This document shows, piece by piece, positions 2,986-47,040 of a DNA stretch of 64,000 nucleotides. The stretch spans positions 1-64,000 of the forward strand of contig NZ_CAJYGK010000096.1 in NCBI RefSeq assembly GCF_913773725.1, written 5' to 3'. The first letter of the stretch is position 1. Every line of letters starts with the position of its first letter. The notes beneath the pieces were generated by a model. It was not told the DNA's origin, ran no database searches, and was given only the letters and a program-made list of their open reading frames with translations. This DNA is from an uncultured Aquabacterium sp. Lineage in GTDB: Bacteria > Pseudomonadota > Gammaproteobacteria > Burkholderiales > Burkholderiaceae_C. Position numbers and translations under genes: made by a program.

Positions 2986-4457
2986 ATCGTGAATTGCTGA
3001 TGCTGGTGGACGCCATCTCGCGTGAGAAGAGCGTGGACCGTGAAGTGGTGTTCGGTGCGGTCGAATCCGCCCTGGCCTCCGCCACCAAGAAGCTCTATCA
3101 GGGCGAGGTCGACATCCGCGTCGCCATCGACCGCGAGACCGGCGTCTACGAGACTTTCCGTCGCTGGCACGTCGTGCCCAACGAGGCCGGCCTGCAGCTG
3201 CCCGATGCCGAGATCCTGCTGTTTGAAGCCCAGGAACAGATTCCCGACATCGAGGTCGATGACTACATCGAAGAACCCATCGAGTCCGTGCCCATCGGCC
3301 GCATTGGCGCCCAGGCGGCCAAGCAGGTCATCCTGCAGAAGATCCGTGACGCCGAGCGCGAGCAACTGCTCAACGACTTTCTGTCGCGCGGCGAAAAGAT
3401 CTTCGTCGGCACCGTCAAGCGTCTGGACAAGGGCGACATCATTGTCGAGTCGGGCCGCGTTGAAGGCCGTCTGAAGCGCGGCGAGATGATCCCGAAGGAA
3501 AACCTGCGCACCGGCGACCGCGTGCGCGCCTTCATGCTGGGCGTGGACACGCTGGCCCGCGGCCCGCAAATCATGCTGTCGCGCTCGGCGCCGGACTTCA
3601 TGATCGAGCTGTTCCGCCAGGAAGTGCCCGAGATCGAGCAGGGCCTGCTGGAGATCAAGAGCTGCGCCCGTGACGCGGGTTCGCGAGCCAAGATCGCCGT
3701 GCTGTCGCACGACAAGCGGGTCGATCCGATCGGCACCTGCGTCGGTGTGCGCGGTTCGCGCGTCACCGCGGTGACCAATGAACTGGCCGGCGAGCGCGTC
3801 GACATCGTGCTGTGGTCGGAAGACCCGGCCCAGTTCGTGATCGGTGCGCTGGCCCCGGCCAACGTGCAGTCGATCTTCGTGGACGAAGAAAAGCACGCCA
3901 TGGACGTGGTTGTGGACGAGGAAAACCTCGCCATCGCCATCGGCCGTGGCGGCCAGAACGTGCGCCTGGCCTCGGACCTGACGGGCTGGCGCATCAACAT
4001 CATGACGGCCGAGGAATCGGCCCAGAAACAGGCCGTCGAAAGCGACTCCATCCGCAAGCTCTTCGTCGAGAAACTCGACGTGGACGAGGAAGTTGCCGAC
4101 ATCCTGATCGCCGAAGGTTTCTCCAGCCTGGAAGAAGTGGCCTACGTGCCGCTGCAGGAAATGCTGGAAATGGAATCGTTCGACGAAGACACGGTCAACG
4201 AGCTGCGCACCCGTGCGAAAGACGCTTTGCTGACCATGGAAATCGCCAAGGAAGAAGAAGTCGAGGCTTTGTCGGAAAATCTCAAGGGTCTGGAAGGTCT
4301 GACCCCCGAGCTGATTGCGAAGCTGGCCGAAGCGGGCATCCACACCCGTGACGACCTCGCCGATCTGGCCGTGGACGAACTCACCGAGATCACCGGTGTG
4401 TCCGACGAACAGGCGCGCGCCCTGATCCTCAAGGCGCGCGAACACTGGTTCGCCTGA
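2982..4457 (+). CDS. nusA: Transcription termination/antitermination factor NusA
   Basis: A 491-residue NusA of the usual proteobacterial length. Domains in order: RNA polymerase-binding N-terminal domain (1-125), S1 domain (about 135-200, [19 protein letters not shown]), KH1 ([10 protein letters not shown]), KH2 ([15 protein letters not shown]), and two C-terminal acidic repeats (after about 360) of the AR2 type that contact the alpha subunit or lambda N-like factors. It regulates pausing, rho-independent termination and antitermination, and rRNA synthesis. It lies second in the rimP operon. Confidence 0.98.
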
Positions 4458-4531
4458 TCGCCCACGCTTCAGCCACCTGAGACGACCCACTCGACCTATT
4501 TACGCAAAAGCTCATCGCAAGGATCAACACA

Positions 4532-7500
4532 ATGGCCGTGACCACCGTCGCACAATTCGCCGCGGAACTGAATCGCCCGGCTGCGACACTGCTGGAGCAG
4601 CTTCAGTCTGCGGGTGTGCCCAAGGCCGCCCCTGAAGACGTGCTCACGGAGGCCGACAAAGAGCGTCTGCTCGACCACCTGCGCACCGCCCACGGTTCCA
4701 CCGGCGGCGACCGCAAGAAGATCACGCTGACCCGCAAGTCGACCACCGAAATCAAGCAGGCTGACGCATCTGGCAAAGCCCGCACCATTCAGGTCGAAGT
4801 TCGCAAGAAGCGCGTGTTCGTCAAGCGCGAGGACGGCGTCGATGAGGCGACCGCCAAGGCGCAGGAAGAAGCCGAGCTGGCTCGCCGCGAGGAAGAGGCC
4901 CGTGCCCAGGCCGAAGCCCTTCGCTTGCAGGAAGAGCAGCTGGCCGAAGCCCGCCGCCAGCGTGAAGAAGCGGAACGCCGCGAGCGCGAAGAGGCCGAAG
5001 CCCGCGCCCGTGCTGCCGCCGAGCAGGCTGCGCGTGAACAGGCCGAGCGTGAAGCCGCGGCCAAGGCTGCTGCGGCTGCCGCTGTTCCGGCGGGTGGCGA
5101 TGCCGATGACGCTGCAGAGCGGGAAGCCGCGGCTGCTCGCCGTGCGGCGGCCCAGGAAGCCGCCCGTGCGGAAGCCGCCGCCCTGACCGCCGCCGCACAG
5201 CGTGTGGCGCGTGGCGGCACGCTGCGTGCCGGTAGCAACAAGCCGGCCGCAGATGCCAAGCCGGCAGAGGCCGCCCCGGCCCCGGTTGCCGCGGCGCCCG
5301 CACCGGCTCCTGCGCCCGTTGCCGCGCCGACCATGCCGATTCAGGCCGACGCCCCCAAGCCGGGTGCCGGTGTGCGCGTGGTGAAGGCCGCCGACCGCGA
5401 AGCCGAAGAAAAGCAGCGCCTGGCCGACCTGGAGCGCCGTCGCAAGGCCGCGGAGGCCGAAGCGGCCGCGATCCGCGCCATGATGAACGCGCCCAAGAAG
5501 GTGCTGACGGCCAAGAAGCCGGAAGAAGCCAAGCCGGCGGACGCCAACAAGGAAGGCATCAAGGGCACCATCCACAAGCCGAAGGGCGCACCGGGCGCCA
5601 CGCCGGGTTCGACCACGGCAGGGGCCGGCGCCAAGCCGGGCGACAAGAAGTCGGTCAAGTCCGAGAAGCTGTCGTCGAGCTGGGCCGATGACGCCAAGAA
5701 GCGCGGTGGTCCCTCCAAGGGCCGTGGTGGCGACGCCGCCAGCAGCTCGCGCAACGGCTGGAAGGCTCCGGGCGGCAAGGGTGGCCGGCGTGGCGACCGC
5801 GGCGAAGGTGCTTCGACCTTCGTGCCGCCGACCGAGCCGCAGATCCTCGAGGTCCACATTCCCGAAACCATCTCGGTGGCCGACCTGGCTCACAAGATGT
5901 CGGTGAAGGCCACCGAGGTCATCAAGCAGATGATGAAGCTCGGCCAGATGGTCACCATCAACCAGCACCTGGACCAGGAAACCGCCATGATCGTGGTGGA
6001 AGAAATGGGCCACAAGGCGTTTGCCGCCAAGCTGGACGATCCGGATGCCTTCCTTGAAGAAGAACACGAGGATCAGGCCGCCGAGGCCAAGCCGCGCGCA
6101 CCGGTCGTGACCGTCATGGGTCACGTCGACCACGGCAAGACCTCGCTGCTGGACTACATCCGCACCTCGCGTGTGGCTGCGGGCGAAGCCGGCGGCATCA
6201 CGCAGCACATCGGCGCTTACCACGTCGACACGCCGCGCGGCATGATCACCTTCCTCGACACCCCGGGTCACGAGGCCTTCACGGCCATGCGTGCCCGCGG
6301 TGCCAAGGCCACCGACATCGTCATCCTGGTGGTGGCGGCCGACGATGGCGTCATGCCGCAGACGAAGGAAGCCATCCACCACGCCAAGGCGGCGGGTGTG
6401 CCCATCGTCGTGGCGATCAACAAGATCGACAAGCCCGGCACCAACCTGGATCGCGTGACCCAGGAGCTGATTGCCGAGCAGGTGGTGCCCGAGTCCTACG
6501 GTGGTGATTCGCCGTTCGTGCCGGTGTCGGCCAAGACGGGCCAGGGCATCGACGATCTGCTCGAGAACGTGCTGCTGCAGGCCGAAGTGCTGGAGTTGAC
6601 CGCACCGGTCGAATCGCTGGCCAAGGGTCTGGTGATCGAAGCGCGTCTGGACAAGGGCCGCGGCCCGGTGGCCACCGTGCTGGTGCAGTCGGGCACGCTC
6701 AAGCGTGGCGACGTCGTGCTGGCCGGTGCTTCGTATGGCCGTGTGCGCGCCATGCTGGATGAAGATGGCAAGGCCGCGACCGAAGCCGGTCCGTCCATCC
6801 CCGTCGAGATCCAGGGCCTCACCGAAGTGCCGTCCGCTGGCGACGAGTTCATGGTGCTGTCCGACGAGCGCCGTGCCCGTGAAATCGCCACCTTCCGTCA
6901 GGGCAAGTACCGCGACGTGAAGCTGGCGAAGCAGCAGGCCGCCAAGCTCGAGAGCATGTTCGAACAGATGGGTTCGGGCGCAGACGTGCAGACGCTGCCG
7001 CTCATCATCAAGGCGGACGTGCAGGGTTCCCAGGAAGCGCTGGCCGCTTCGCTGCTCAAGCTGTCGACCGAGGAAGTGCGTGTGCAGATCGTGCACGCCG
7101 CCGTGGGTGGCATCTCCGAGTCGGACGTCAACCTGGCGATCGCTTCGAAGGCCGTCATCATCGGCTTCAACACCCGCGCGGATGCCAACGCCCGCAAGGT
7201 GGCCGAGCACAACGGTGTCGACCTGCGCTACTACAACATCATCTACGACGCCGTGGACGATGTGAAGGCGGCGATGGGCGGCATGCTCGCACCCGAGCAG
7301 CGCGAGGAAGTCATCGGTTCGGCCGAGATCCGTCAGGTCTTCATCGCCTCGAAGATCGGCACGATCGCGGGCTGTATGGTCACCGACGGCGTGGTGCGTC
7401 GCAGCGCCAAGCTGCGCCTGCTGCGCGACAACGTGGTCATCTACACCGGCGAGCTGGAAGGCCTCAAGCGCTTCAAGGACGATGTCAAGGAAGTTCGCGA

Positions 7501-7693: not shown

Positions 7694-8092
7694 ATGCGCC
7701 ATAAACGCTCCACCCCCAACCGCAGCAACCGGATTGCCGACCAGATCCAGCGTGATGTGGCCGAGCTGATCCGTGATCTGAAGGATCCGCGCATCGGCAT
7801 GGTCACGATCAGCCATGTCGAGGTGACGCCCGACTACGCCCATGCCAAGGTGTTTTTCTCGTTGCTGATCGGCAATCCGGAAGACACCGAAGCGGGCCTC
7901 AACGAGGCAGCCGGCTATCTGCGTAACTCGTTGTTCAAGCGCCTGCAGATCCACACGGTGCCGACGCTGCACTTCCACTTCGACCGCACCACCGAGCGTG
8001 CGGCCGAACTGAACGCCCTGATCAACCGTGCCGTGGCCGACAAGGCCAAGGACGGTGACGAGCCCGTGAGCGGGGAGGGTGGTCAGCCGTGA
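7694..8092 (+). CDS. rbfA: Ribosome-binding factor A
   Basis: A 132-residue cold-shock-related 30S assembly factor with a KH-like fold. Typical features are the start [17 protein letters not shown], the segment [23 protein letters not shown] and [18 protein letters not shown] 7694 gives the canonical N-terminus. The stop overlaps the truB start as GTGA, a coupling common in this operon. Confidence 0.97.
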
Positions 8093-9135
8093 GCGACCTG
8101 CAAGTCGGTCAGCGCGCAGACCTCGGTCAGCGGCCTCAGCGACCCCCGCGCCTGCCGCGGCGTGCGTTGCATGGCGTGATCCTGCTGGACAAGCCGCTGG
8201 GGCTGTCCAGTAACGACGCGCTGCAGAAGGTCAAGCGCCTGTTTCGCGCGGAGAAGGCGGGCCACACCGGCACGCTGGATCCGCTCGCCACGGGGCTGCT
8301 GCCCTTGTGCTTCGGTGCGGCGACGAAGTTTTCTCAGGTGTCGCTCGATGCCGACAAGCGCTATACCGCGACCGTGAAGCTGGGCGTCGTCACCACGACG
8401 GGCGATGCGGAAGGCGAGGTCGTGTCCACGCGCGACGTGACGCCGGACATGGTGGCACCGGATCGCGTGGCGGCGGCCTGCGCCACCTTCACCGGCGAGA
8501 TCGACCAGATTCCGCCCATGCACTCGGCCCTCAAGCACGAGGGGCGTGCCCTGTACGAATACGCCCGTGAAGGCGTCGAGATCGAACGGGCTGCCCGCCG
8601 CGTGACGATTCACGGCATCGACATCCTGCGCTGTGAAGATGGCGTGCTGGAGGTCGACGTGCGTTGCAGCAAAGGCACCTACATCCGTACCCTGGCGCAG
8701 GACATCGGCGAGCACCTCGGCTGCGGCGCGCACCTGATCGGTCTGCGCCGTACCGGCAGCGGCGGCGTGACGCTGGAAGGCGCCGTCACCCTCGATGAGC
8801 TGACTGCGCTGGACGAGGCCGACCGCGATGCCTTGCTGCAGCCTGCAGACGTGCTGCTGTCCGATTGGCCGGACGTGCTGCTCAACGAGCAGGACGCCAC
8901 CCGTTTCCTCACCGGTCTGCGCCGGCGAACAAAGCTGCCCGATGCACCGCAGGTGCGTGTGTACGGGCCCCATCCCGCGGCGCCCGCAGACGCCGCCCGC
9001 CGTGTGTTGCTGGGCAGTGCCCACATCCAGGGCGGCGAACTGATCCCCACCCGCCTGCTGAGTCCGGCCGAGGTGCAGGGCATGGTGCTGATGTGCCGGC
9101 CCGCCCGCGCTGCCGATCCGGCTGTGGCCCCCTGA
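8089..9135 (+). CDS. truB: tRNA pseudouridine(55) synthase TruB
   Basis: A 348-residue enzyme that makes Psi55 in the T-arm of tRNAs. The catalytic aspartate lies in [14 protein letters not shown] (Asp64), preceded by the family motif [14 protein letters not shown] and followed by RYTATVKLG and [15 protein letters not shown]. Translation starts at GTG 8089, overlapping the rbfA stop. The C-terminal PUA-like region (after about 250) is longer than in E. coli by some 30 residues. Confidence 0.97.
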
Positions 9136-24159: not shown

Positions 24160-25208
24160 CACGCCAGCGGGCTGACCTCGACGGTCTTGCGCCGATCGTA
24201 GACCTTGCGCATGGTGGCCTCGTTGCGGTGCGTGTTCGGGTCGCGGTCCTGATCGAGCATCCGGCTGACGTAGAAGGCCCGCAGGTCGTGTGCGGTGAAG
24301 TGCTGGCCACCGGCTTTCATCCAGGCTTTCATGAGCTTGTTCCAGGTGCACTTGAACCCCTGATCGGTGTAGGGCGCACGGCCGCCGCGCACCGGGAACA
24401 GGTAGCGGCTCTCGACCGGGCGGATGCGTTTGACTTCCTCCAGGATCTGACGCAGCAGGGGCGACCACAGCACCAGGTAGTTGCGGTCAGCCTCGTAATA
24501 CTTGGTCTTGGCGTCGCGGGTGTCGATGCCCTCCGGCGTGAGCGCGTCGGCATCCAGGCGCAGCAGCTCGGCGCGGCGCCGGCCCGAGATCGCCACGGTT
24601 GCCCCGATCAGGGCGGCCATGTAAAGAGCCGTGCTCTGGTTCTTGGCAAACTGCATGAAAGCGTTGAACTCGACCAGGCCCACCTCGCGGTTGCGTGGCT
24701 TCTCGCGGTTGCGCTTGACGCCGTGGCAGGGGTTGGACTCCACCATGCCCTCGCGCATGCCGTAGTTGAACGCGCCCGACAGCGCGGCCATTTCCCGGTT
24801 GCCGCTCGTCGGCTGCCCCTTGACGCCCGCGCCGGGGTTGCCCTTGCGCCTGGCGGCCAGGTACTGAGCCGCGTGCATCGGGCGGAAGTCGGCGGCCCGC
24901 ATGTCGCCAAACACAGGGATGACGTGCCGCTCCAGGCAGCCGCTGTATTCCTCGATGGTGCGCTGGCCCAGGGCGTTGCTGTCGCCCTCCAGGCGCATCT
25001 GCCTCTGCTCGGCGATGAACCCTCGGCACATGGCCCGGATCGTGTCGTCGCGCTCACTGGTGCCGCGCAGCTCGGCGAGCTTTTTGCGGGCCTCATCGAG
25101 CTGGCGGCCCAGGGCGATGGTCTGCCCGTCAATCTTGGTGAAGTAGGACGTGACCCGGGCGCCCACGCGGGCATACAGGCCGTCCTCGATGGTGGTGTAG
25201 GTTGTCAT
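24159..25208 (-). CDS. Phage integrase, tyrosine recombinase
   Basis: A 349-residue site-specific recombinase. The core-binding SAM-like domain spans about 65-160. Catalytic residues are visible: Arg in ISGRRRAELLRLD, His and Arg in FTAHDLRAFYVS, and the nucleophile Tyr in MRKVYDRRKT near the C-terminus. It likely recombines attP with the 3' end of tRNA-His. The start is preceded by a variant of the start-associated sequence (25214-25226). Its position at the end of the leftward operon and next to the tRNA is standard for temperate phages. Confidence 0.93.
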   Translation of the reverse strand: MTTYTTIEDGLYARVGARVTSYFTKIDGQTIALGRQLDEARKKLAELRGTSERDDTIRAMCRGFIAEQRQMRLEGDSNALGQRTIEEYSGCLERHVIPVFGDMRAADFRPMHAAQYLAARRKGNPGAGVKGQPTSGNREMAALSGAFNYGMREGMVESNPCHGVKRNREKPRNREVGLVEFNAFMQFAKNQSTALYMAALIGATVAISGRRRAELLRLDADALTPEGIDTRDAKTKYYEADRNYLVLWSPLLRQILEEVKRIRPVESRYLFPVRGGRAPYTDQGFKCTWNKLMKAWMKAGGQHFTAHDLRAFYVSRMLDQDRDPNTHRNEATMRKVYDRRKTVEVSPLA

Positions 25209-25213
25209 GCTGC

Positions 25214-25226
25214 TCTCCGGTCGTTT
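25214..25226 (-). repeat. Start-associated sequence, variant copy (integrase)
   Basis: Reads AAACGACCGGAGA leftward, one base from the common form; the GGAGAG part is the ribosome-binding site of int. Confidence 0.65.
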
Positions 25227-27711: not shown

Positions 27712-28149
27712 TCAGAACTTCTTTCCGCCTTCTGCCAGGCGGGCCTCGGGCTTGTGGTCGGCGCGGGTGGCGTTGAATTCCAGCTTCTCGGCGATGGCGC
27801 CGGCCACATCCAGGCCCAGGCCGCCGGCCATGTCGAAGATGCGGATAACGGCATCGGCCAGCTCGACCTCCAGCATGGAGCGGTGCGGCAGCTTGTCGTC
27901 CGCCAGGCCCTTGCGATGGCCCTCCATGCCCTCGCTGATTTCGCTGTGCACCAGGCACAGCAGCTCGCCCACGTTGCGCTTGGCGGGCTCACCGGGGTTC
28001 GTGGTCAGGTCGGCGCCACTGCCCAGGTCGTGCCACCAGCCGCAGGCGTAGGCCAGGCCGTGACACTGGTTTTGCAGGACTTCGGCGGCGTGCTTGACGC
28101 GGGCCGTGTGCAGGACGAATTGGCTGGGGAATGCCAGAACGGTGCTCAT
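27712..28149 (-). CDS. MazG-like nucleotide pyrophosphohydrolase
   Basis: A 145-residue all-alpha NTP-PPase-like protein. The metal-binding pattern is seen in CLVHSEISEGMEGHRK and VELADAVIRIFDMAGG (E-x2-E...E-x2-D). Such phage enzymes hydrolyse (d)NTPs or alarmones. It is preceded by a start-associated sequence and begins a translation block. Confidence 0.8.
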   Translation of the reverse strand: MSTVLAFPSQFVLHTARVKHAAEVLQNQCHGLAYACGWWHDLGSGADLTTNPGEPAKRNVGELLCLVHSEISEGMEGHRKGLADDKLPHRSMLEVELADAVIRIFDMAGGLGLDVAGAIAEKLEFNATRADHKPEARLAEGGKKF

Positions 28150-28153
28150 GGGA

Positions 28154-28164
28154 TCTCCGGTTGT
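28154..28164 (-). repeat. Start-associated sequence (MazG-like gene)
   Basis: Reads ACAACCGGAGA leftward, 5 nt before the ATG; the GGAG is the ribosome-binding site. Confidence 0.8.
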
Positions 28165-28358: not shown

Positions 28359-29048
28359 TCAGAAAGGGATGTCGTCATCCATGTCGTCAAAGCCGCTCGG
28401 CGCACGGCCCGACTGTTGGCGCGGGGCCTGGCCGCCGCCGTTGCCGCCGTTGCCGCCGCCGCTGTAGCCGCCGCCGTTGCGCGGCGCCGGGCGGTCGCCG
28501 GCCAGCTTGTCCTTGAGGGTGGCCACCAGCTTGGCCAGCGCCTCGGGCTTGGCGATGCGGTCCAGGATCTCCTTGGCCATCAGGTTGGTGCCGGCCTGGA
28601 AGACGGTGAACAGCACCATGCGCGACTTCTTGTCGCCTCCGTTGTTGGGCCAGTATTCCTCGCGCTGCAGCACCACGCCCACGCGCTTGCCCATCAGGGC
28701 CGGCAGCAGCTCGGCGGCGCGCTGGACCTCCTGACCCACCTTGCTGTCCCACACCTTGACGGTGCCCTGCGCGCTGTCCATGCTGCGCAGTTGCAGGCAG
28801 GCCATCAGGGCGTGCAGCACCTTCATGCCGCGCAGCTCCTGGCCCTCGCTGTTGGTGGTCCACAGCGTCAGATACCCGGCGCGGCTGCCGTCGTCGCCGA
28901 CGAAATCGAACTCCACGCCCTGCGTGCCGCTGTCGGATGTGACCAGCTCGGCGCGGGTGAAGGTGCCCACGTAGGCGCCGGATTGGACGATGCGGGCGGG
29001 GGCGTCAGCCTTGCGGGCGGCTTCGGCGTTCAGTGCAAAAGTGACCAT
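28359..29048 (-). CDS. Phage single-stranded DNA-binding protein with SSB-Ct tail
   Basis: A 229-residue protein. The N-terminal part (about 15-150) is beta-rich and could be an OB fold. It is followed by a Gly/Asn-rich flexible linker and an acidic tip DDMDDDIPF, whose last six residues equal those of E. coli SSB. The tip in SSB recruits RecO, RecG, PriA, exonuclease I and others, so this phage protein probably binds ssDNA and the same partners. It sits two genes from a Sak4-like ATPase; Sak4 recombinases commonly occur with a phage SSB. Confidence 0.82.
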   Translation of the reverse strand: MVTFALNAEAARKADAPARIVQSGAYVGTFTRAELVTSDSGTQGVEFDFVGDDGSRAGYLTLWTTNSEGQELRGMKVLHALMACLQLRSMDSAQGTVKVWDSKVGQEVQRAAELLPALMGKRVGVVLQREEYWPNNGGDKKSRMVLFTVFQAGTNLMAKEILDRIAKPEALAKLVATLKDKLAGDRPAPRNGGGYSGGGNGGNGGGQAPRQQSGRAPSGFDDMDDDIPF

Positions 29049-29054
29049 GTGAAA

Positions 29055-29065
29055 CTCCGGTTGTT
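29055..29065 (-). repeat. Start-associated sequence (SSB gene)
   Basis: Reads AACAACCGGAG leftward, 6 nt before the SSB ATG. Confidence 0.8.
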
Positions 29066-30289: not shown

Positions 30290-30676
30290 TTACGCCTCCT
30301 GCTCGGCGTAGTCGTCGGCGTACCGCTGCGCCATGTAGCCGATGGCCTCGCGCAGCTTGGCCAGGGCGCCGGCCTCATCGCCGCGCAGCAGCAGGGACAT
30401 GGCCTGCACCACCTCCACGGCCTCGGCGGGCGGGGCTTCGTGCTGGTAGATCACTTCGGCCAGGGTGGCCTTGCCGCTGCGCTCCCAGGGCGCAGCAATG
30501 GGCGCCTCCGGGTGCAGCTTCAACTCGCGCAGGAAGGACGCTTCTGCGCGCTCGGCGATGCGATCGAATCGCTCATCGCGGGCGTCGCCTTCCTCTTGGG
30601 CGGCAAGGTAGGCAGAATCGTCGCCGGGGCACGGCGTCGATCTTCTCCAGGCAAGGGGGGTTGCTGTGTTCAGCAT
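30290..30676 (-). CDS. Hypothetical phage protein
   Basis: A 128-residue acidic, helical protein, not recognised. The start-associated sequence fixes the start at ATG 30676: a longer frame from 30697 would translate the ribosome-binding element itself (MKQPEIP). A 156-nt gap with several inverted repeats lies upstream, so this gene probably begins its own transcript. Confidence 0.7.
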   Translation of the reverse strand: MLNTATPLAWRRSTPCPGDDSAYLAAQEEGDARDERFDRIAERAEASFLRELKLHPEAPIAAPWERSGKATLAEVIYQHEAPPAEAVEVVQAMSLLLRGDEAGALAKLREAIGYMAQRYADDYAEQEA

Positions 30677-30681
30677 GGGAA

Positions 30682-30694
30682 TCTCCGGTTGTTT
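30682..30694 (-). repeat. Start-associated sequence (30.3-30.7 kb gene)
   Basis: Reads AAACAACCGGAGA leftward, 5 nt before the ATG. This copy decides the start of the gene. Confidence 0.85.
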
Positions 30695-33462: not shown

Positions 33463-33866
33463 CACTGCACTCCCGGGACATAGCGCCACAGCTTCGTGGG
33501 CCGGCCGTGCGCGTCAGGCGCCTGGCTGGTGACGTGCTCGCCAGTCCACTCGATGACGTGGCGCGAAGCCATGCGGCGGGTCAGGGCGCCCCAGCCGTTT
33601 TGATGGGGAGGCATGGGCAGCTCGCTGGCGACCGCGTGGGCCTTGAACTGTTCCATGGTGAAGGTGTCCACCTCGATGCACTCGGCCTGCAGCCAGGCTT
33701 TCAGGTGGGGCTCGATGCCGGCCAGCCAGTCGGCACATGTGTGCTCGACACGGGCGATGCCGTTGAGCTTGAGCTGCTGCCCCATGCGCGGGTTCTTGCG
33801 CGGGATCAGGGCGCTCATGTCGCGCTCGGGGGCGCGAAGGGTCGTGGTGTTGTTGTAGTGGTTCAC
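33462..33866 (-). CDS. Hypothetical phage protein, GTG start
   Basis: A 134-residue protein, start GTG 33866 preceded by a start-associated sequence. The C-terminal part (HVIEWTGEHVTSQAPDAHG...LWRYVPG) looks like a small winged-helix unit. Not recognised. Confidence 0.65.
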   Translation of the reverse strand: MNHYNNTTTLRAPERDMSALIPRKNPRMGQQLKLNGIARVEHTCADWLAGIEPHLKAWLQAECIEVDTFTMEQFKAHAVASELPMPPHQNGWGALTRRMASRHVIEWTGEHVTSQAPDAHGRPTKLWRYVPGVQ

Positions 33867-33872
33867 GATCTA

Positions 33873-33884
33873 CTCCGGTTGTTT
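33873..33884 (-). repeat. Start-associated sequence (33.5-33.9 kb gene)
   Basis: Reads AAACAACCGGAG leftward, 6 nt before a GTG start, which argues that GTG is used. Confidence 0.8.
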
Positions 33885-35243: not shown

Positions 35244-35611
35244 GCTGCAAGTGCCTCCGATTCTTCGCGCAGGGCGTGCGGCAGGCCAGCGGCTCGGCGG
35301 CGCTCCTGATCGGCGATGAATTCGGGGGAGGGTTGCAGCGCCCCTTTGCCGGTGCGGCTGGGAGGCACGTCGCCCAGGCGCTCCATGAGGTAAACGAGAT
35401 CGGGCGCCCACCCCGGTGTGACCTTGGCGGCTGCCTCCACGATGCGTTTGGCCAGTCGATAACCGATCGGAGCATTGCTGTACGCAATGTTCTGGATGTG
35501 CCGGTAGCTGGTCTTCGCTTCTTGCGCCATGTTCTTCACGTTCTCCGTTCCTACGTGGTGCATCCAGGCGCGCAGGCCCAGGGTACCCACATTGCTGGTT
35601 TTTTGGTGCAT
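35240..35611 (-). CDS. Cro/YdaS-like helix-turn-helix regulator
   Basis: A 123-residue protein, first gene of the main leftward operon and divergent to the CI-like gene. The segment VKNMAQEAKTSYRHIQNIAY is the helix-turn-helix, followed by IGYRLAKRIVEAA. This position and fold match Cro-type early regulators. Start ATG 35611 is preceded by a start-associated sequence. Confidence 0.75.
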   Translation of the reverse strand: MHQKTSNVGTLGLRAWMHHVGTENVKNMAQEAKTSYRHIQNIAYSNAPIGYRLAKRIVEAAAKVTPGWAPDLVYLMERLGDVPPSRTGKGALQPSPEFIADQERRRAAGLPHALREESEALAA

Positions 35612-35616
35612 TTACT

Positions 35617-35629
35617 TCTCCGGTTGTTT
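35617..35629 (-). repeat. Start-associated sequence (Cro-like gene)
   Basis: Reads AAACAACCGGAGA leftward, 5 nt before the ATG. Confidence 0.85.
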
Positions 35630-35972: not shown

Positions 35973-36431
35973 ATGGATATTCGCCAGATTCGACTTGCCA
36001 ATTACCGCGACCTGCTGGTTGCGTTCGCCAACAGCCCGGAAGAAGCCGGGGCCTCGGACTACGGGCGCCTGAAACGCTTTGCGACCAAGGCCGGTGTCAG
36101 TGACCGGATGCTTTCGCACATCAACAACGGCCGGGGGAACCTCGGCAGCGACCTGTGCCGTCGCATGGAGCAGGGCCTGGGTCTGCCATCCGGTTGGATG
36201 GACCAGATGCACGGGCTTGGAGATTCGGCTGGCGTGTCTGACGAGGAACAGAGCTTCTTGGAGCTGGCCCTGCAGATGTTTCGGGCAAACCCGTTGAGGG
36301 CCACCAAGCTGATGGCGGATCTGGCCTTGTCGTTAAATAGCGAGCGCGATTCGCACAGTGCTTCCGCAGCAATAGCAAAGGACGGCCAGGAATCAAACGG
36401 CCGCGGAGTCCACGGATTCACGGGTCGCTGA
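35973..36431 (+). CDS. CI-like phage repressor, DNA-binding domain type
   Basis: A 152-residue protein. An XRE-like N-terminal domain (about 20-80, LKRFATKAGVSDRMLSHINN with the Arg/Asn recognition region, then LCRRMEQGLGLPSGWMDQMH) is followed by an acidic helical region. There is no LexA/S24 self-cleavage domain, so induction would need another route than RecA-stimulated autoproteolysis. ATG 35973 has AGTGAGAG upstream. It is the only rightward gene between the two leftward operons. Confidence 0.78.
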   Translation: MDIRQIRLANYRDLLVAFANSPEEAGASDYGRLKRFATKAGVSDRMLSHINNGRGNLGSDLCRRMEQGLGLPSGWMDQMHGLGDSAGVSDEEQSFLELALQMFRANPLRATKLMADLALSLNSERDSHSASAAIAKDGQESNGRGVHGFTGR

Positions 36432-36435
36432 TACT

Positions 36436-36452
36436 GCTAGTGCAGAACTAGC
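36436..36452. promoter_or_regulatory. Perfect palindromic operator behind cI
   Basis: TGCTAGT and ACTAGCA arms around GCAGA (core 36436-36452). Same arms and 5-nt spacer as at 41086. It lies 4 nt after the cI stop and is centred about 49 nt before a predicted start site. Confidence 0.7.
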
Positions 36453-36486: not shown

Positions 36487-36492
36487 TCCGGC

Positions 36493-36571
36493 ACCATCGG
36501 GTGATTGCACCTGACGGGTGTCTTGTTGTCATGTCTTCGCCAGTCGCCTTCACGGGTGGCTGGCTTTTTTT
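36493..36571 (+). ncRNA. Candidate phage small RNA (about 79 nt)
   Basis: Bounded by the promoter above and an intrinsic terminator at 36539-36571. No start codon with a ribosome-binding site opens a frame inside it. The 5' part can form small hairpins from GGTG/CACC segments (36500-36520). The set-up of operator, promoter, 45-nt body and terminator is that of a small RNA; expression is not shown. Confidence 0.5.
36539..36571 (+). terminator. Rightward intrinsic terminator behind cI
   Basis: GCCAGTCGCC pairs over ten positions (two G-U) with GGTGGCTGGC around a 6-nt loop, followed by seven T. Confidence 0.8.
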
Positions 36572-36644
36572 CTGCGCCGACGCGGAGCCATGGGCTTATC
36601 CGGGGGTTGTTGCAAAGTCCGCTGATCGGCGCAGAAAAAAAGCC
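36562..36644. repeat. Perfect 19-bp inverted repeat linking two terminators
   Basis: 36562-36580 (GGCTTTTTTTCTGCGCCGA) is the exact reverse complement of 36626-36644; a further GCGGA/TCCGC pair lies just inside. Each arm contains the T-tract of one of the convergent terminators. Confidence 0.85.
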
Positions 36645-36666
36645 CCGGCGAAAGATCGACCGGGGC
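36635..36666 (-). terminator. Leftward intrinsic terminator of the 40.8-36.8 kb operon
   Basis: Leftward GCCCCGG (36660-36666) pairs with CCGGGGC (36642-36648) around an 11-nt loop and is followed by seven T. Confidence 0.78.
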
Positions 36667-36811
36667 AAAGTGGTGAGCCGGGACGCATCCCGGTTCGTCA
36701 CTCTGCCCCAGCACAACCGGAGAGAAGGCTGGGCAGTGGCCGGACAGCCGGCCAGCGTGACGCCACGGGCGGGGATTTTCTCCCATGCTGGCGCCAGGCT
36801 GTTGCGTGCCG
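36667..36811 (-). ncRNA. Structured 3' UTR with an anti-leader hairpin loop (candidate regulatory RNA)
   Basis: Between the last leftward gene and the terminator lie three perfect hairpins: 36737-36754 (7-bp stem), 36707-36733 (stem CCCAGC/GCTGGG) and 36673-36701 (6-bp stem plus GTGA/TCAC). In the leftward RNA the middle loop (36713-36727) reads CTTCTCTCCGGTTGT, complementary over 11 nt to the start-associated sequence of the early genes. The 3' UTR could therefore pair with those ribosome-binding sites; this is inference from complementarity. Confidence 0.45.
36713..36723 (+). repeat. Start-associated sequence in opposite orientation, inside a hairpin loop
   Basis: ACAACCGGAGA on the plus strand; every other copy is on the minus strand. 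It forms the first 11 nt of the 15-nt loop between CCCAGC and GCTGGG. Confidence 0.8.
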
Positions 36812-37015
36812 TCACTTCGCGGCCACCATGCGCACGTACTGGCTGGCGGCGCATTCGCCTGCTGCGCGCAGGCGGTGGCGGCTGATGAAGGTGTCCGCCG
36901 CGATCACCAGCGTGGCCAGGCGGGCCGGGTCGGGCAGGTCGTCGTGGTCGTGTCGTCGCATCCATGCGCGGAATTTGTCCTTGAGTCGAATGGGGATCGG
37001 GTTGCTGCGGTTCAT
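36812..37015 (-). CDS. Hypothetical small basic protein
   Basis: A 67-residue protein, rich in Arg/His, preceded by GGAGGAAC. The sequence IPIRLKDKFRAWMRRHDHDD and the helix LATLVIAADTFISRHRLRAA may form a ribbon-helix type DNA-binding unit. Last gene of the second leftward operon. Confidence 0.6.
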   Translation of the reverse strand: MNRSNPIPIRLKDKFRAWMRRHDHDDLPDPARLATLVIAADTFISRHRLRAAGECAASQYVRMVAAK

Positions 37016-37080: not shown

Positions 37081-37413
37081 TCATGCTGTCTTGGCCTCGG
37101 CTGCTGCGATGGCGCACAGGTGCGCGGTGGCGTCGTGCTCGGCGTCCTGCTGCTCCATGATGGCCACCATGTTGTCGATGGCCTTCTGGATGCGCTCGAT
37201 CTCCTTGTGGGCCAGGGCGATGGCTTGCATGAACTCATGCCCCTTGCCCTCGGCGCACCAGTCGGCGCCATCCTTGGTGCACGTGACAATCTCGCCGAAC
37301 GTGATCCCACCAAGGGTGTTTGTGTGCGGCCGGTGGTAGGTCACGCCATTGGGGATGCGGTAGGTGCGCGCCAGGCGCTGCTGCAGGGTGGTCTTCGGTG
37401 CTTGAACAGTCAT
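37081..37413 (-). CDS. Hypothetical phage protein
   Basis: A 110-residue protein with a beta-like N-terminal half (RTYRIPNGVTYHRPHTNT) and a long helix (ALAHKEIERIQKAIDNMVAI). The start overlaps the upstream stop as ATGA. Not recognised. Confidence 0.7.
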   Translation of the reverse strand: MTVQAPKTTLQQRLARTYRIPNGVTYHRPHTNTLGGITFGEIVTCTKDGADWCAEGKGHEFMQAIALAHKEIERIQKAIDNMVAIMEQQDAEHDATAHLCAIAAAEAKTA

Positions 37414-37649
37414 CGTTGTGTCCTTTCGTCAGTAGATGGCGCAGGGTTCTCCGGTTGTGTGGGTGCTTTGGTGCACTGGTGGCACATGCAGCGCATGCCG
37501 GCCAGCTTCTGCTTGGTGCCGGCGCGGTACGCCTCATCGGCCACGCGCTTGCTGATTCGGTTTTCGGTGTAGAGGCGCAGGAAGGTGCGCATGTCGGCGT
37601 GATAGCCGGCTATGCGCATCCAGGCCAGAACGTCGGCCCTGTTGCTCAT
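37410..37649 (-). CDS. Hypothetical small cysteine-containing protein
   Basis: A 79-residue protein. RCMCHQCTK provides a C-x-C-x2-C cluster after a helical N-terminal half. A copy of the start-associated sequence falls inside its 3' end and is translated there. Confidence 0.65.
   Translation of the reverse strand: MSNRADVLAWMRIAGYHADMRTFLRLYTENRISKRVADEAYRAGTKQKLAGMRCMCHQCTKAPTQPENPAPSTDERTQR
37448..37458 (-). repeat. Start-associated sequence inside a coding region
   Basis: Reads ACAACCGGAGA leftward, about 35 nt before the next start instead of at ribosome-binding distance. It may be a remnant. Confidence 0.6.
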
Positions 37650-37653
37650 CGCA

Positions 37654-38508
37654 TCAGTGCGCGGCGTAGGTCCACTTGCCGTCGGCCGTCTGGTTGCCCA
37701 GCGGCTCGCGCTTGATCTGGCCGTCCTCGCCGATGGTTTCGATGAAGGGGGCGGTGACCTCCACCGTCTTCGGGTGCAGCCACATGACGGTCTGTGACAG
37801 GCCCGCCAGGCCGTGCTCGCCCATGGGAATGTCCACCGGGCTCTCGCCGCTCGGGCGGTCGGCCACCAGCAGGATGCGGCCGGCCAGGGGCTCGGGGTAG
37901 AAGGGCGTCAGGCAGAACGACTGTTCGCTCCAGTCCTTCAACAGCCCTTCCTCGTCGATCCAGGCCGTCAGGCGGATCTGATCGGCGCCGCGGCCGGCGT
38001 GGCCCACGTCGATGGCCTCCACCCAATTGCAGCCGATGAGCTGATACAGCCCATCGGGGCCATCGAGCTGGCCTGTCGTGCGCACAAACTGAACAGCCCT
38101 GGCCACGGGGTCGATGAGCACGGCGCGCACCAGCTTGGTGCGAGATTCCCCCTCGTTTTGCGCTTCTAAGGGTTTACCCTGACCATCGCGGGACGCGCCA
38201 GAATCGCCAGGATCGCGTTTTTCTTGGTCAGGGGATGCCATGGCCTTGGCATGGTCAGAAAAACGCGCTGCAGGCTCGTTTTCGCTGCCTGCAAGGGTCG
38301 CCCCATGGTCTGCCAGGGCTGCAGTCACGCCCTTCTCTGCATAGGCTATGGCGTGTTTAATGCTGCGCGTACACCAATCGGGGTATTCAAACCCAGGCAC
38401 AGCCACAGCCAGGGCGTCGCGCAGCCGGCTGTCGTCGTCGTATTCGGTGCCGATCTCCAGGTCGGCCGGGTAGGTCTTGAGGGTCTGGATCGCTTCGTTG
38501 CGGTTCAT
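37654..38508 (-). CDS. Hypothetical phage protein with DUF3846-like C-terminal part
   Basis: A 284-residue protein. The N-terminal part is helical, the middle is a charged linker, and the C-terminal half (LVRAVLIDPVARAVQFVRTT ... LTAWIDEEGLLKDW ... RILLVADRPSGE) resembles DUF3846, a domain of unknown role in phages and mobile elements. Start ATG 38508 is supported by a start-associated sequence. Confidence 0.7.
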   Translation of the reverse strand: MNRNEAIQTLKTYPADLEIGTEYDDDSRLRDALAVAVPGFEYPDWCTRSIKHAIAYAEKGVTAALADHGATLAGSENEPAARFSDHAKAMASPDQEKRDPGDSGASRDGQGKPLEAQNEGESRTKLVRAVLIDPVARAVQFVRTTGQLDGPDGLYQLIGCNWVEAIDVGHAGRGADQIRLTAWIDEEGLLKDWSEQSFCLTPFYPEPLAGRILLVADRPSGESPVDIPMGEHGLAGLSQTVMWLHPKTVEVTAPFIETIGEDGQIKREPLGNQTADGKWTYAAH

Positions 38509-38514
38509 GTTGGA

Positions 38515-38527
38515 TCTCCGGTTGTTT
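38515..38527 (-). repeat. Start-associated sequence (37.7-38.5 kb gene)
   Basis: Reads AAACAACCGGAGA leftward, 6 nt before the ATG. Confidence 0.85.
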
Positions 38528-39517: not shown

Positions 39518-40836
39518 TCAGTAGGTGACGATCTTGGAAACTTCCTCGGCCTTCCAGCCCAGGAAGAAGGTGTCTTTGACTTCCTCCAGCGACTCGCCGG
39601 CTGCCATCAGCTTGGTGCTGTCGAGCAGGAACCGGGTGGACAGCACGCGGCGCATCTGGTTGCGGGTGATGCAGTCGCGCACCTGACGCGCCCAGGCCAG
39701 CAGCTCGGGGTTGACCGCCTGCTTCTCAAACTCGGCGTCGTAGTCCAGCGCCAGGGTGCCGGCGCGGAAACGGTCAATCGTTGCCTCGTCGAGCTGGTTG
39801 CGCCCGGCGTAGACCGACGTGCCGCCCTTGCCGTAGGTGTTCGCCGCGGCGATGCAAACGAAGTCGGGATGGCGGATCACTTCGGTGCGGCCCACGCGCT
39901 GCGGCAGGTTGAACCGGCCGTTGGCCAGCGCCTGGTTGAGCCACAGCAGCATGTTTTCGTCGGCCGCGTCGATCTCGTCGAGCAGGAACACGCCGCCGTT
40001 TTCGTAGATGCGCACGAAGTCGCTTTCCACGTACTCAAACGAGCCGCCGTCGCCGGTCGGCAGCAGCCAGCCCTGCAGGGCCGACTCGCTCATCCCGGCC
40101 GAGCACGAAACCGACGCGAAGGGGCGCTGCAGGGCTTGCGCAACCTGCGCGGCCAGGTGCGTCTTGCCGCAGCCGGCGGGGCCAGGTGCGTCTTGCCGCA
40201 GCCGGCGGGGCCGACCAGTAGCTGATTGACGCCAGCCGCTGCGCGGCGCAGCACCTTGGCGAATTCCGGCCGGGTGTAGCCGTCGAGCTTGACGGGCTCC
40301 AGGTCGTTGATCTTCACCACGACCTCACGCGCCGGCATGCCGTCGAGCTTGCGCTGCACCATGTCGAGGATGGCGCCGTAGTTCTTGGCGCCAAGATCCT
40401 CGGCCCGCTCCAGCACGTCGGCAATCATCGGCTCCACGATGGCCCGCACGTCGGACTCGCTCACGGTCGCCTTGCCCTTGCTCATGAGCTTGGCCAGCAT
40501 CGCGGCCACTTCGGTGACTTCGGGGGCGGGCTCGGCGGCCGTCTGGTCTTCCTCCCAATCGGCAGCGTCGGCGGTGACGTTGCCGGCCTCATCGACTGCC
40601 AGGCTCACTTCGTCGGCGTCGATCAGCCAGTCCTCGGCCACGAATTGCTCCGCCTCGGCTTCGCATGCACGCTTGGCAGCATCCAGCAGTTGCTCGGTCG
40701 TGAAGCCGCGCAGCATCGCCAGCAGCTCCGGCTTGGTCACTCGCGCCCAATCGCGCTTGATTCCAAGCTGTTGCGCAATTTGAATTGCGCCATCCTTGGT
40801 CATATTGCCGAAATCGAAAGTCTTGGTGTTTTGCAT
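39518..40836 (-). pseudogene. CobS/MoxR-like AAA+ ATPase, frameshifted by a 29-bp tandem duplication
   Basis: The gene starts at ATG 40836 and runs normally to the Walker A (LLVGPAGCGKTHLA). There a 29-bp unit is present twice in tandem (40152-40180 and 40181-40209), which shifts the frame and gives a stop at 40090. Removing one copy restores a single frame of exactly 430 codons (429 residues): Walker B GGVFLLDEIDAAD, sensor 1 CIAAANT and the C-terminal helical lid follow in the second piece. As read, the protein stops soon after Walker A. The unit is short enough that a sequencing or assembly slip is an alternative. Confidence 0.85.
40152..40209. repeat. 29-bp tandem duplication in the AAA+ gene
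   Basis: Two exact copies (40152-40180, 40181-40209), with the first 3 nt of a third. The unit encodes the P-loop GPAGCGKTHLA. Confidence 0.95.
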
Positions 40837-40842
40837 CTGATT

Positions 40843-40855
40843 TCTCCGGTTGTTT
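40843..40855 (-). repeat. Start-associated sequence (AAA+ gene)
   Basis: Reads AAACAACCGGAGA leftward, 6 nt before the ATG. Confidence 0.85.
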
Positions 40856-45537: not shown

Positions 45538-47040
45538 ATGGACTACCAACACTTCAAGACTGCCGTCTACAAGGCAGACCCCGATCTGCCTGCCCGTGCG
45601 CACGCCATCAACATGGCTACGCGGGTGCTCAACGGCTCGCTGTACGAGGCGCTGCCGTACCCATTCCACGTCGAGAAGAACGACGCCGGGGAGTACATCC
45701 CGCTGCGCACGCGCCGCCCCTCTGTTCGGTACAACCTGTGCCGCATCGTGGTGGACGACTCGGTGAGCCTGCTGTTCGGTGATGGCCATTTCCCCTCTGT
45801 CGAGTGCAAGGACGAGCCGACACGTGACATGCTGGCCAAGGTCATCGAGGACAGCGGCCTCAAGCTGGCCATGGTCGAGGCAGCCACGCAAGGCGCCACC
45901 GGCTCGGTGGCCATCGTCATGCGGGTGCTGTCCAACCGACTGTTCTGGTCTGTCATGCCCACGGCCTACCTGACGCCGACCTACAGCCGCCAGGCGCCCG
46001 ACACGCTCGATCTGGTGCGCGAGCAGTACAAGGTGGTGGGCTCGGTCCTGCGCGAATCGGGCTACAGCATCCCCGACGACAAGCTGGGCACGTGGTTCTG
46101 GTTCCGCCGGGACTTCACGGCCGTCGAGGAAGTCTGGTACCAGCCTGTCGAGATCGGATCCGAGCAGGCCAAGTCGGCCGAGTGGCCACGCGACCAGGCC
46201 AACACGACGCGGCACAGCCTGGGCTTCGTGCCTGTGGTCTGGATGCGCAACCTGCCGGCCGCTTCGGCGATCGACGGCGCCGCGACCTTCCCGCCGGAGG
46301 CCGTGGACACCATGATCGAGCTGGACTACCAGCTCTCGCAGGGCGGCCGGGCCTTGAAGTACCAGGGCGACCCCACGCTGATGATCCGCGAGCCGGCCGT
46401 GGACAACGACGGCAACCTGGTGCGCAGCGCGGGCAACGCTGTCGTGGTCGGCCCCGAGGGCGACGCCAAGCTGCTGGAGATCGGCGGCAGCGCCTCCGCG
46501 GCTGTTCTGGAGTACGTCCGGGCCTGCCGCGAGCTGGCACTGGAGCAGGCCCACGGCAACCGATCGAACGCCGACAAGCTGTCGGCCGCACAGTCGGGCC
46601 GTGCCATGGAGCTGCTGAACCAGTCGCTCATCTGGCTGACCGACAAGCTGCGCACCAGCTACGGCGACCGCGGGCTGTTGCCGCTGCTGCGCATGGTCAT
46701 CAAGGCCGCGGCCCGCATCGAGATCCGGCTGTCGGACGGCAGCAAGGTCGATGGCATGTCGGACGCGCCGGAGGCTGCCCTGTCGCTGCGCTGGCCGCAC
46801 TGGTACGCGCCCACCTACACCGACAAGCAGGCCGAGGTCACGACGCTGAACATGGCCACCGGAGGCCGCCAGCTTCTGTCGCAGGAAACGGCCGTCAAGT
46901 CCCTGGCGTCGAGCTACGACGTGGCCGACCCCGAGGACGAGCTGCGGGCCATCGAGGCCGACGGCCCCACGCCTGACCAGGCGGCCAAGGAAGCGGCGGC
47001 GAAAGCCAAGCAACAGCCCCCGCAACCGAAAGAGGAATGA
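45538..47040 (+). CDS. Portal protein
   Basis: A 500-residue protein following terminase, as expected for the dodecameric portal. Size and features (VRYNLCRIVVDDSVSLLFGD, ELDYQLSQGGRALKYQGDPT, a long helical part near 340-390, acidic/Gln-rich tail) fit the SPP1/P22-like portals. I prefer ATG 45538 over GTG 45532. Confidence 0.85.
   Translation: MDYQHFKTAVYKADPDLPARAHAINMATRVLNGSLYEALPYPFHVEKNDAGEYIPLRTRRPSVRYNLCRIVVDDSVSLLFGDGHFPSVECKDEPTRDMLAKVIEDSGLKLAMVEAATQGATGSVAIVMRVLSNRLFWSVMPTAYLTPTYSRQAPDTLDLVREQYKVVGSVLRESGYSIPDDKLGTWFWFRRDFTAVEEVWYQPVEIGSEQAKSAEWPRDQANTTRHSLGFVPVVWMRNLPAASAIDGAATFPPEAVDTMIELDYQLSQGGRALKYQGDPTLMIREPAVDNDGNLVRSAGNAVVVGPEGDAKLLEIGGSASAAVLEYVRACRELALEQAHGNRSNADKLSAAQSGRAMELLNQSLIWLTDKLRTSYGDRGLLPLLRMVIKAAARIEIRLSDGSKVDGMSDAPEAALSLRWPHWYAPTYTDKQAEVTTLNMATGGRQLLSQETAVKSLASSYDVADPEDELRAIEADGPTPDQAAKEAAAKAKQQPPQPKEE

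Follow-up and report, generated by a model that had tools for sequence, protein, structure and literature searches.

A hairpin loop complementary to a leader shared by many phage genes, in the 3'UTR of a prophage operon: a candidate multitarget antisense RNA

Introduction

What is a prophage doing with a single inverted copy of the leader that stands before many of its own genes, placed in the loop of a hairpin at the 3' end of an operon? The antisense RNAs lambda OOP and P22 sar, as treated in PMC12197685, act on one phage mRNA each (cII and ant, respectively), and long pairing is given there as a general property of cis-encoded RNAs; the passages of that paper on OOP, sar, PreS, and others describe no single RNA that addresses a shared phage leader. 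Among the passages of PMC13402561 that contain RNA terms, none was relevant.

Shared leaders of this kind have been described as Start-Associated Sequences (SAS). In Cluster K mycobacteriophages, as outlined in PMC3203893, the SAS is a short conserved sequence at the ribosome-binding sites of many non-structural genes, with conservation extending beyond the Shine-Dalgarno sequence. An SAS has also been reported in Cluster EF (PMC7302621) and an SAS-like repeat in Citrobacter phage Mordin (PMC4611695). In the passages that deal with it, the function of the SAS was left undetermined in 2011 (PMC3203893, which allows for a host or phage binding product, “either RNA or protein”), is given as not known in PMC11373665, and is merely described as proposed regulatory in PMC12699233. 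The same passages propose no antisense RNA for the SAS, and those of PMC3203893 propose no antisense role for the Cluster K SAS; among the papers listed on the SAS of mycobacteriophages and other phages, titles and abstract beginnings likewise contained no such proposal.

Results

The analyzed stretch of DNA, here called the window, covers bases 1 to 64000 of contig 96 in a draft genome of 4.5 Mb and has 66% G+C. Its prophage has the non-structural genes in leftward orientation, beginning near 41 kb and ending with the integrase gene at 25.2 to 24.2 kb. The nearest relatives of its Sak4 protein among named genomes are in Rubrivivax (70%) and a Burkholderiales metagenome-assembled genome (MAG) (64%), so that the host probably belongs to the Burkholderiales. 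An INPHARED search gave no near-identity DNA match to the query. On the minus strand, CAACCGGAG occurs eight times (six copies of ACAACCGGAGA and two of ACAACCGGAGT, which ends in T), and in seven of these the GGAG lies 5 to 7 nt from a start codon (ATG or GTG). The integrase gene has a one-mismatch copy, with GGAG 6 nt before its ATG. These leaders, all on the minus strand, are as follows.

40843 to 40853, minus strand: leader of the CobS-like ATPase ORF (ATG at 40836)
38515 to 38525, minus strand: leader of a 284-aa ORF (ATG at 38508)
37448 to 37458, minus strand: displaced exact copy in the 3' coding end of ORF 37410-37649
35617 to 35627, minus strand: leader of the Cro-position ORF (ATG at 35611)
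33872 to 33882, minus strand: leader ACAACCGGAGT of a 134-aa ORF (GTG at 33866)
30682 to 30692, minus strand: leader of a 128-aa ORF (ATG at 30676)
29054 to 29064, minus strand: leader ACAACCGGAGT of the SSB gene (phrog_743; ATG at 29048)
28154 to 28164, minus strand: leader of a 145-aa ORF (ATG at 28149)
25214 to 25224, minus strand: one-mismatch leader ACGACCGGAGA of the integrase gene (phrog_1; ATG at 25208)

The GGAG of the displaced copy is 35 nt upstream of the next ATG (37413); its counterpart in the closest relative (see below) is 10 nt before a start codon. Three of the copies (ending at 40853, 38525, and 37458) are on the upstream operon, and five of the eight, together with the integrase leader, lie beyond its terminator. 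The leader genes are presumably early genes. Their leaders are short pre-start repeats before many non-structural genes and are conserved beyond the Shine-Dalgarno sequence, which is how a Start-Associated Sequence is defined, and their sequence, ACAACCGGAG(A/T), does not match the cluster K consensus GGGATAGGAGCCC. Judged by sequence, the window leaders work like an SAS without belonging to the cluster K set.

The only plus-strand copy of CAACCGGAG in the window lies between the upstream operon and a convergent cI-like gene, in the following setting.

about 41.0 to 36.64 kb, minus strand: upstream leftward operon, ending at a T7 terminator
36812 to 37015, minus strand: last ORF of this operon (67 aa, stop at 36812)
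36668 to 36811, minus strand: 3'UTR of the operon (144 nt), which bears the element
36704 to 36735, minus strand: anti-leader hairpin, stem TGCCCAGC/GCTGGGGCA with one bulged G (from sequence and fold)
36713 to 36727, minus strand: 15-nt loop CUUCUCUCCGGUUGU, of which 11 nt (UCUCCGGUUGU) are complementary to leader ACAACCGGAGA
36635 to 36666, minus strand: leftward intrinsic terminator, GCCCCGG...CCGGGGC and then T7 (from sequence and fold)
36539 to 36573, plus strand: rightward terminator-like site 3' of the cI-like gene, ending before the anti-leader element
35973 to 36431, plus strand: cI-like HTH gene (PF01381), convergent with the leftward operon

The 67-aa ORF has no PHROG or Pfam match and no relative was found for it in IMG/VR. 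The PF01381 match of the cI-like gene (E value, 0.003; 18 bits) is below the curated score of 23, and homologues stand at the same place in four relatives (39 to 56% identity). As an earlier note on this DNA had claimed, the plus strand at 36713 to 36723 is an exact ACAACCGGAGA at the start of the loop of a CCCAGC/GCTGGG hairpin, and the leftward operon has a terminator at 36635 to 36666. The loop lies exactly between CCCAGC (36707 to 36712) and GCTGGG (36728 to 36733), and the terminator consists of a stem at 36642 to 36666 and T7 at 36635 to 36641. The minus-strand RNA of the hairpin reads UGCCCAGC-CUUCUCUCCGGUUGU-GCUGGGGCA. The terminator, about 37 nt downstream of the hairpin, forms in the predicted fold of the 3'UTR and is absent from a simple terminator scan because its loop is longer than 8 nt; leftward transcription would be expected to pass through the element.

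The stability of the small hairpin alone is not unusual (z score of 0.03 for 46 nt and −1.63 for 36 nt), and the whole 3'UTR plus terminator has a z score of −4.19 and folds better than 200 of 200 shuffles. Parts of the loop are predicted to pair weakly within the loop as well, and in the fold models it is only partially accessible. The plus strand can likewise form a hairpin, with the leader in sense in its loop. Being intergenic, in a 3'UTR, and on the same strand as all of its putative targets, the element is not of the OOP/sar cis-encoded type. Its 15-nt loop is complementary to several initiation regions encoded elsewhere (the eight CAACCGGAG sites), and within its 3'UTR it precedes a Rho-independent terminator that has a U tract (T7), as does the element of one relative, L274 (see below); in two others, T runs follow the element at 51 to 52 nt (closest relative) and 146 to 147 nt (L272). 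A search of the window with Rfam 15 at the gathering score returned two tRNAs only and no family match for the element.

Could the inverted copy be a chance match, or a recent inverted duplication of the leader without function? The window has just one inverted copy, as such a reading would have it. A first-order Markov model, on the other hand, predicts 0.0099 exact plus-strand 11-mers per window and 2e-5 in the 144-nt 3'UTR, and an element occupies the corresponding position in phages that share roughly 27 to 88% identity in matched protein segments. We give this reading next to no weight; comparative data, taken from sequence, already disfavor it.

Sequence searches placed the element in a narrow group. 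In its own 4.5-Mb genome the exact 11-mer has nine copies, seven in the window and two elsewhere, and a reversed control pattern has two. When two mismatches were allowed, 17 copies were found versus 13.67 expected from shuffles, which is not significant; we therefore rely on exact matches and on comparison. Among 399 genomes of the order, the loop 16-mer was present only in its own. In IMG/VR, the 15-mer occurred in 34 stretches, with three or more leader copies besides only at the locus of the closest relative; the others, which have fewer, look like chance. The leader pattern itself matched at least 120 IMG/VR stretches, which are a sample. A DNA search with the 3'UTR region matched 14 of the 42 genomes of the same genus, including its own; the other 13 matches were short and weak (mostly inside the last ORF, one over the terminator) and were set aside. 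Of 61 genomes, 6 matched a generic hairpin pattern, all with unrelated loops; the own genome was missed because the stem has a bulge. Locus L042 was rejected because its three CAACCGGAG copies are all within long ORFs.

The closest relative, IMGVR_UViG_2837173148_000001, was the top match for SSB (62% identity) and Sak4 (81%) and was found without use of the motif. Its early region is syntenic, with matched protein segments 35 to 88% identical. In this 43.5-kb record, ACCGGAG occurs 12 times on one strand, 10 times as a CAACCGGAG leader with a start codon 5 to 10 nt on and twice elsewhere in unrelated sequence. On the opposite strand it occurs twice, both times as CAACCGGAG: one copy is in unrelated sequence at 36489, and the other, the only ACAACCGGAGA there, is in the syntenic 3'UTR before a terminator. 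The 19-mer GCCTTCTCTCCGGTTGTGC around the loop is identical in the two phages, and blastn aligned nothing else of this 3'UTR with the window. The hairpin form in the closest relative is poor: in the predicted fold, CUCCG is hidden in a local pair with CGGAG and the stem that closes the loop is short, so that the loop would not be cleanly presented. Overlapping ORFs of just 57 and 61 codons can be placed over its element.

Two more-diverged relatives, L272 (IMGVR_UViG_3300037502_001885; Sak4 67%) and L274 (IMGVR_UViG_3300020811_000133; Sak4 66%), have the ATPase genes, the cI-like gene, and the Cro-position gene in the order of the window, and a convergent cI-like gene faces the element in the closest relative (56% identity), L272 (46%), and L274 (43%). 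In L272 and L274, a search for sequence complementary to the phage's own leaders led to the element, which was then recognized by its place; among the duplex matches in 12 kb, the two elements ranked third and first, respectively. In L272, the element is 9 nt past the stop of the last ORF (5026-5355), in the syntenic place, where a 14-bp stem of unrelated sequence (TGCAGGGCCGGTGA/TCGCTGGCCCTGCA) encloses a near-identical 15-nt loop, CTTCTCTCCGATTGA. Pairing of this loop with any of the four L272 leaders would include a C.A mismatch. In L274, where the last ORF is 4099-4497, the element follows its stop by 50 nt, precedes a strong terminator at 4584, and has TTTTACTTTCCGGTTTGATCG within a predicted hairpin.

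The L274 leaders differ from those of the window, and its loop differs with them. Its four leaders, CAAACCGGAG, read CAAACCGG where the window has ACAACCGG, and its loop reads CCGGTTTG where the window loop reads CCGGTTGT. Counted leftward from CCGG, the leaders have A, A, C, A in the window and A, A, A, C in L274; counted rightward from CCGG, the loops have T, T, G, T in the window and T, T, T, G in L274. Both partners of two pairs have thus changed in L274, the one phage in which loop and leader co-changed.

Predicted duplex energies bear this out for some of the phages. The window loop gave a mean of −20.5 kcal/mol with its own leaders (−23.2 kcal/mol with the integrase leader ACGACCGGAGA) and −15.6 with those of L274, and the L274 loop gave −17.7 with its own leaders and −13.0 to −13.5 with the others. 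The L272 loop had no cognate advantage (−10.9 with its own leaders and −11.0 to −12.0 with others). For comparison, the 16S tail with the window leaders gave −7.2. Among 2,000 base-shuffled loops, none reached the observed energy for the window, the closest relative, or L274, and the fraction for L272 was 0.0005. Energy alone is not specific, since 3 of 300 other early-strand start sites (integrase apart) gave −17.9 to −20.0 with the loop.

Overall, the element is present in three of the four relatives with the clearest uniform leaders, or in four of five phages counting the window. The exception is L275 (IMGVR_UViG_3300044984_002597), in which we searched for a comparable anti-leader element and found none; its leader GAGAGGAA has nine copies in the 20-kb locus, and CGAGAGGA occurs 13 times in the 21.9-kb record and never on the opposite strand. 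This Sak4 relative has a wholly different uniform leader, CGCGAGAGGAAA, and a cI-like gene of 39% identity. Six further loci on five contigs, related by Sak4 or SSB and with weaker leaders of three to four copies (L162/L297, which are one contig, L164, L308, L311, and L314), had no antisense leader copy in a hairpin with up to one mismatch. The earlier note had looked to related phages for co-variation of loop and leader and had held that relatives with the leaders and no matching loop would speak against its proposal. The comparison came out mostly in its favor, given the presence of the element in three of four relatives and the changed loop of L274, with L272 and its C.A mismatch on the other side; relatives of the unfavorable kind do exist (L275 and the six weaker-leader loci).

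Two further candidates among relatives were not counted. L394, a distant relative of the 79-aa neighbor, has no uniform leader. L313 (IMGVR_UViG_3300042124_000024) has, at 6560 to 6579, upstream of or near Sak4, an antisense copy of its three-copy leader GCAAGGAGC in a hairpin (gcgtgg-CTCCTTGC-ctgcgc); this may be chance, and it was left out because at least seven further near-matches lie elsewhere.

Proposed mechanism and alternatives

The element is real and conserved, and its interpretation as antisense, which draws on sequence, is well supported; the comparative evidence is the decisive part of the case. We hypothesize that an antisense RNA is encoded in the 3'UTR of the leftward operon, which runs from about 41.0 to 36.64 kb, and that the loop CUUCUCUCCGGUUGU of this RNA would pair with the common leader ACAACCGGAG(A), masking the Shine-Dalgarno GGAG and the six bases upstream of it. 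The leader would be a shared address and the loop its key. A 3' fragment would be released by processing and accumulate when the operon is expressed, and initiation would then fall on all leader genes. About eight targets (ATPase, the Cro-position gene, SSB, integrase, and others) would have their translation lowered together, including three genes of the operon itself (negative feedback) and the operon of Cro, SSB, and integrase. That a 3'UTR-derived antisense RNA represses many phage genes via one shared leader is, on balance, probable. Within this model, processing, stability, Hfq involvement, an effect in trans, and the negative rather than positive direction of that effect are presumed; the terminator, with its T7, is of the kind found in Hfq-bound 3'UTR RNAs. 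The antisense-in-trans reading of the earlier note is partly supported.

The main rival is a purely cis role, in which the 3'UTR loop pairs with the leaders of its own polycistronic mRNA (those ending at 40853, 38525, and 37458) in a closed loop that adjusts how this transcript is translated or decays; no RNA would be released, and the operon of Cro, SSB, and integrase would not be affected in trans. The upstream operon does bear three leader copies, and the element is at the 3' end of this operon in four of four phages; matching would not, however, be required on the downstream operon, where five of the eight leaders and that of integrase lie, and we regard a cis role as unlikely. A different possibility is that the address is read by a protein, as a RegA-like translational repressor would do, or that the leader is a plain strong initiation module, the inverted copy being a vestige or part of another structure. 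Uniform leaders without an anti-copy in the stretches searched of Mordin, AnnaSerena, L275, and TM4 fit such a reading, as does the speculation, in the passage of PMC11373665 concerned, that gp51 of the cluster K phage Adephagia acts on SAS genes. It leaves unexplained why four diverged phages keep an inverted copy in the same position of the 3'UTR while the stems change, and why loop and leader co-changed in L274, and we hold it to be distinctly improbable. Because the plus strand also forms a hairpin with the leader in sense, a rightward transcript could show the leader ACAACCGGAGAGAAG in its loop and act as a decoy that titrates a leader-binding phage or host factor. This is very unlikely: a rightward terminator-like site (36539 to 36573) lies between the cI-like gene and the element, the closest relative has terminator-like inverted repeats in both directions at its element (by eye), and the L272 loop is not an exact leader in sense.

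Compared with known systems, the proposed antisense RNA shares with OOP and sar, as these are treated in PMC12197685, that it is phage encoded and pairs with phage mRNA (blocking it, for OOP and sar); OOP and sar are antisense to one target, whereas the prophage RNA would be encoded apart from its targets and pair over 11 to 13 nt with many genes. Lambda PreS/LPR1, an Hfq-dependent phage sRNA whose target described there is host dnaN (PMC12197685), resembles it as a phage sRNA with a target gene encoded elsewhere and differs in that its description involves no shared phage leader. If the proposal holds, one RNA would act on many genes through an identical leader, a regulon controlled without a protein, and leader and loop would evolve as lock and key; the phage antisense RNAs described in the relevant passages of PMC12197685 (OOP and sar) act, by contrast, on one mRNA. 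Bacterial sRNAs with C-rich anti-Shine-Dalgarno loops recognize diverse host mRNAs via the core Shine-Dalgarno sequence. The prophage loop is like them in its complementarity to the Shine-Dalgarno region and its several targets, and unlike them in that its match spans a phage-specific leader and co-changes with it in one relative.

Shared leaders and inverted copies in unrelated phages

Cluster K1 mycobacteriophages have the same two components. Like the prophage leaders, the Cluster K SAS is a short conserved repeat at ribosome-binding sites, with an opposite copy in a hairpin loop in Cluster K1; its sequence, GGGATAGGAGCCC, and the phages are unrelated to those of the window. In Anaya, Angelica, and CrimD, the strand that carries the SAS genes has the inverted SAS as a 10-nt loop, CCTCCTATCC, closed by a GCGCGG/CCGCGC stem, and this Cluster K1 loop can pair with the SAS. 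The site is at 45867 to 45888 in L355 (Anaya) and 33631 to 33652 in L356 (Angelica). The hairpin sits close to the right end of the genome, and the gap that contains it spans about 380 to 420 nt where measurable. The anti-SAS region is present in 162 phage records, which often duplicate one phage, and in many of the 60 listed a hypothetical ORF is annotated under the match, so that the non-coding status of the region is not beyond doubt.

We aligned 15 of the 162 records. All 15 phages have SAS copies in the stretch examined, and the loop sequence is intact in six (Anaya, Angelica, CrimD, Murucutumbu, Niklas, and LilPharaoh). Five of these six have a clear hairpin; the Murucutumbu stem is shortened and does not fold so. 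No annotated gene covers the intact loop in five of the six, and in Angelica it is inside annotated gp92. Four phages have C/U-rich replacement loops (Amgine, Amohnition, Krueger, and Phrank), and no such loop was found in the remaining five aligned phages (Yuna, Marshawn, SirPhilip, ShedlockHolmes, and Pixie). Against 500 shuffles each, the loop variants gave fractions of 0.002 (Amgine), 0.01 (Krueger), 0.056 (Amohnition), 0.36 (Marshawn), and 0.28 (SirPhilip), a test that covered these five phages and, of the K1 copies, Anaya. In TM4, seven SAS matches lie between 35.0 and 52.8 kb, a stretch whose gene strand has no anti-SAS.

We scanned 362 loci de novo for k-mers that recur before start codons and have an antisense counterpart in a hairpin. 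At a k value of 9 and with four or more leaders, the scan found 21 places in 13 loci, where the reversed control gave 3 places in 2 loci and the complemented control 8 in 3; at a k value of 8, also with four or more leaders, the contrast was weaker (70 places in 21 loci versus 35 in 16 and 30 in 11). These counts are a guide and not a P value, because the loci are not independent (one contig is present five times and cluster K several times) and some were included because they have the motif. Weaker window matches (e.g., at 7733) and one at L355:37266 were taken as chance and dropped. The scan recovered the known cases and one new case, L138 (IMGVR_UViG_3300020682_000004; 33% G+C). Its leader, ACGGAGCAA, occurs 14 times on one strand of the 59.9-kb record and never on the other, and at 8655 to 8805, in the gap after an ORF ending at 8630, there are three consecutive hairpins whose loops (with CTTGCTCC, CATGCTCC, and TTGCTCC) are complementary to the leader over 7 to 9 nt. 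By eye, many of the L138 leader genes have a promoter-like box of their own. A match to L138 in L372 (GSW6) covered its terminator only and was dropped.

On this comparison of sequences, the unrelated phages (Cluster K1 and L138) appear to show the same anatomy as the prophage by convergence. The arrangement may have arisen or been reinvented in the prophage group, in Cluster K1 mycobacteriophages, and in the AT-rich L138. Whether SAS-type leaders in unrelated phages are generally addresses for dedicated anti-leader RNAs, with one hairpin RNA per regulon, is a more tentative proposition, to which we assign somewhat less than an even chance; the generalization is promising and has clear exceptions. 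In AnnaSerena, which has SAS-like leaders, no anti-copy was found in 20.0 to 56.7 kb with up to two mismatches. In the whole Mordin record, with up to one mismatch, there are 18 forward matches and one reverse match (at 71246, with a mismatch in the Shine-Dalgarno core); three short anti-motifs are absent around the leader cluster, and no anti-copy was found. If the wider reading is true, it answers what the SAS is for, a question left open in the passages on it in the literature from 2011 to 2025, and the element offers a direct and cheap test of SAS function.

Two other records have repeated leaders. In L104 (IMGVR_UViG_3300017963_000190), a 260-kb phage record, the leader CAACCGGAG(G) stands before at least 11 ORFs of the locus, and ACCGGAG occurs 41 times on one strand and 15 times on the other. 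In L115 (IMGVR_UViG_3300000363_000104), a leader with AACCGGAGTCGCAAATG is repeated before ORFs on both strands and can itself fold (a GCAAC/GTCGC-type stem); what looked like anti-leader hairpins there are the leaders of the opposite strand and were rejected.

Further features of the prophage locus

The CobS-like ATPase gene appears as two ORFs (40836-40090 and 40093-39518), both with a phrog_249 match, and has a 29-base direct tandem duplication at 40153 to 40210 of the window, which may be either a mutation or an assembly artifact. The convergent terminators share a long inverted repeat (GGCTTTTTTTCTGCGCCGA/TCGGCGCAGAAAAAAAGCC) at 36562 to 36580 and 36626 to 36644 of the window, and the closest relative has a similar inverted repeat of terminators with a different sequence (by eye). 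Finally, the operon is flanked by similar palindromes, CTAGTGCAGAACTAG and GCTAGTGGCGCACTAGC, at 36437 and 41086 of the window, which are candidate repressor operators.
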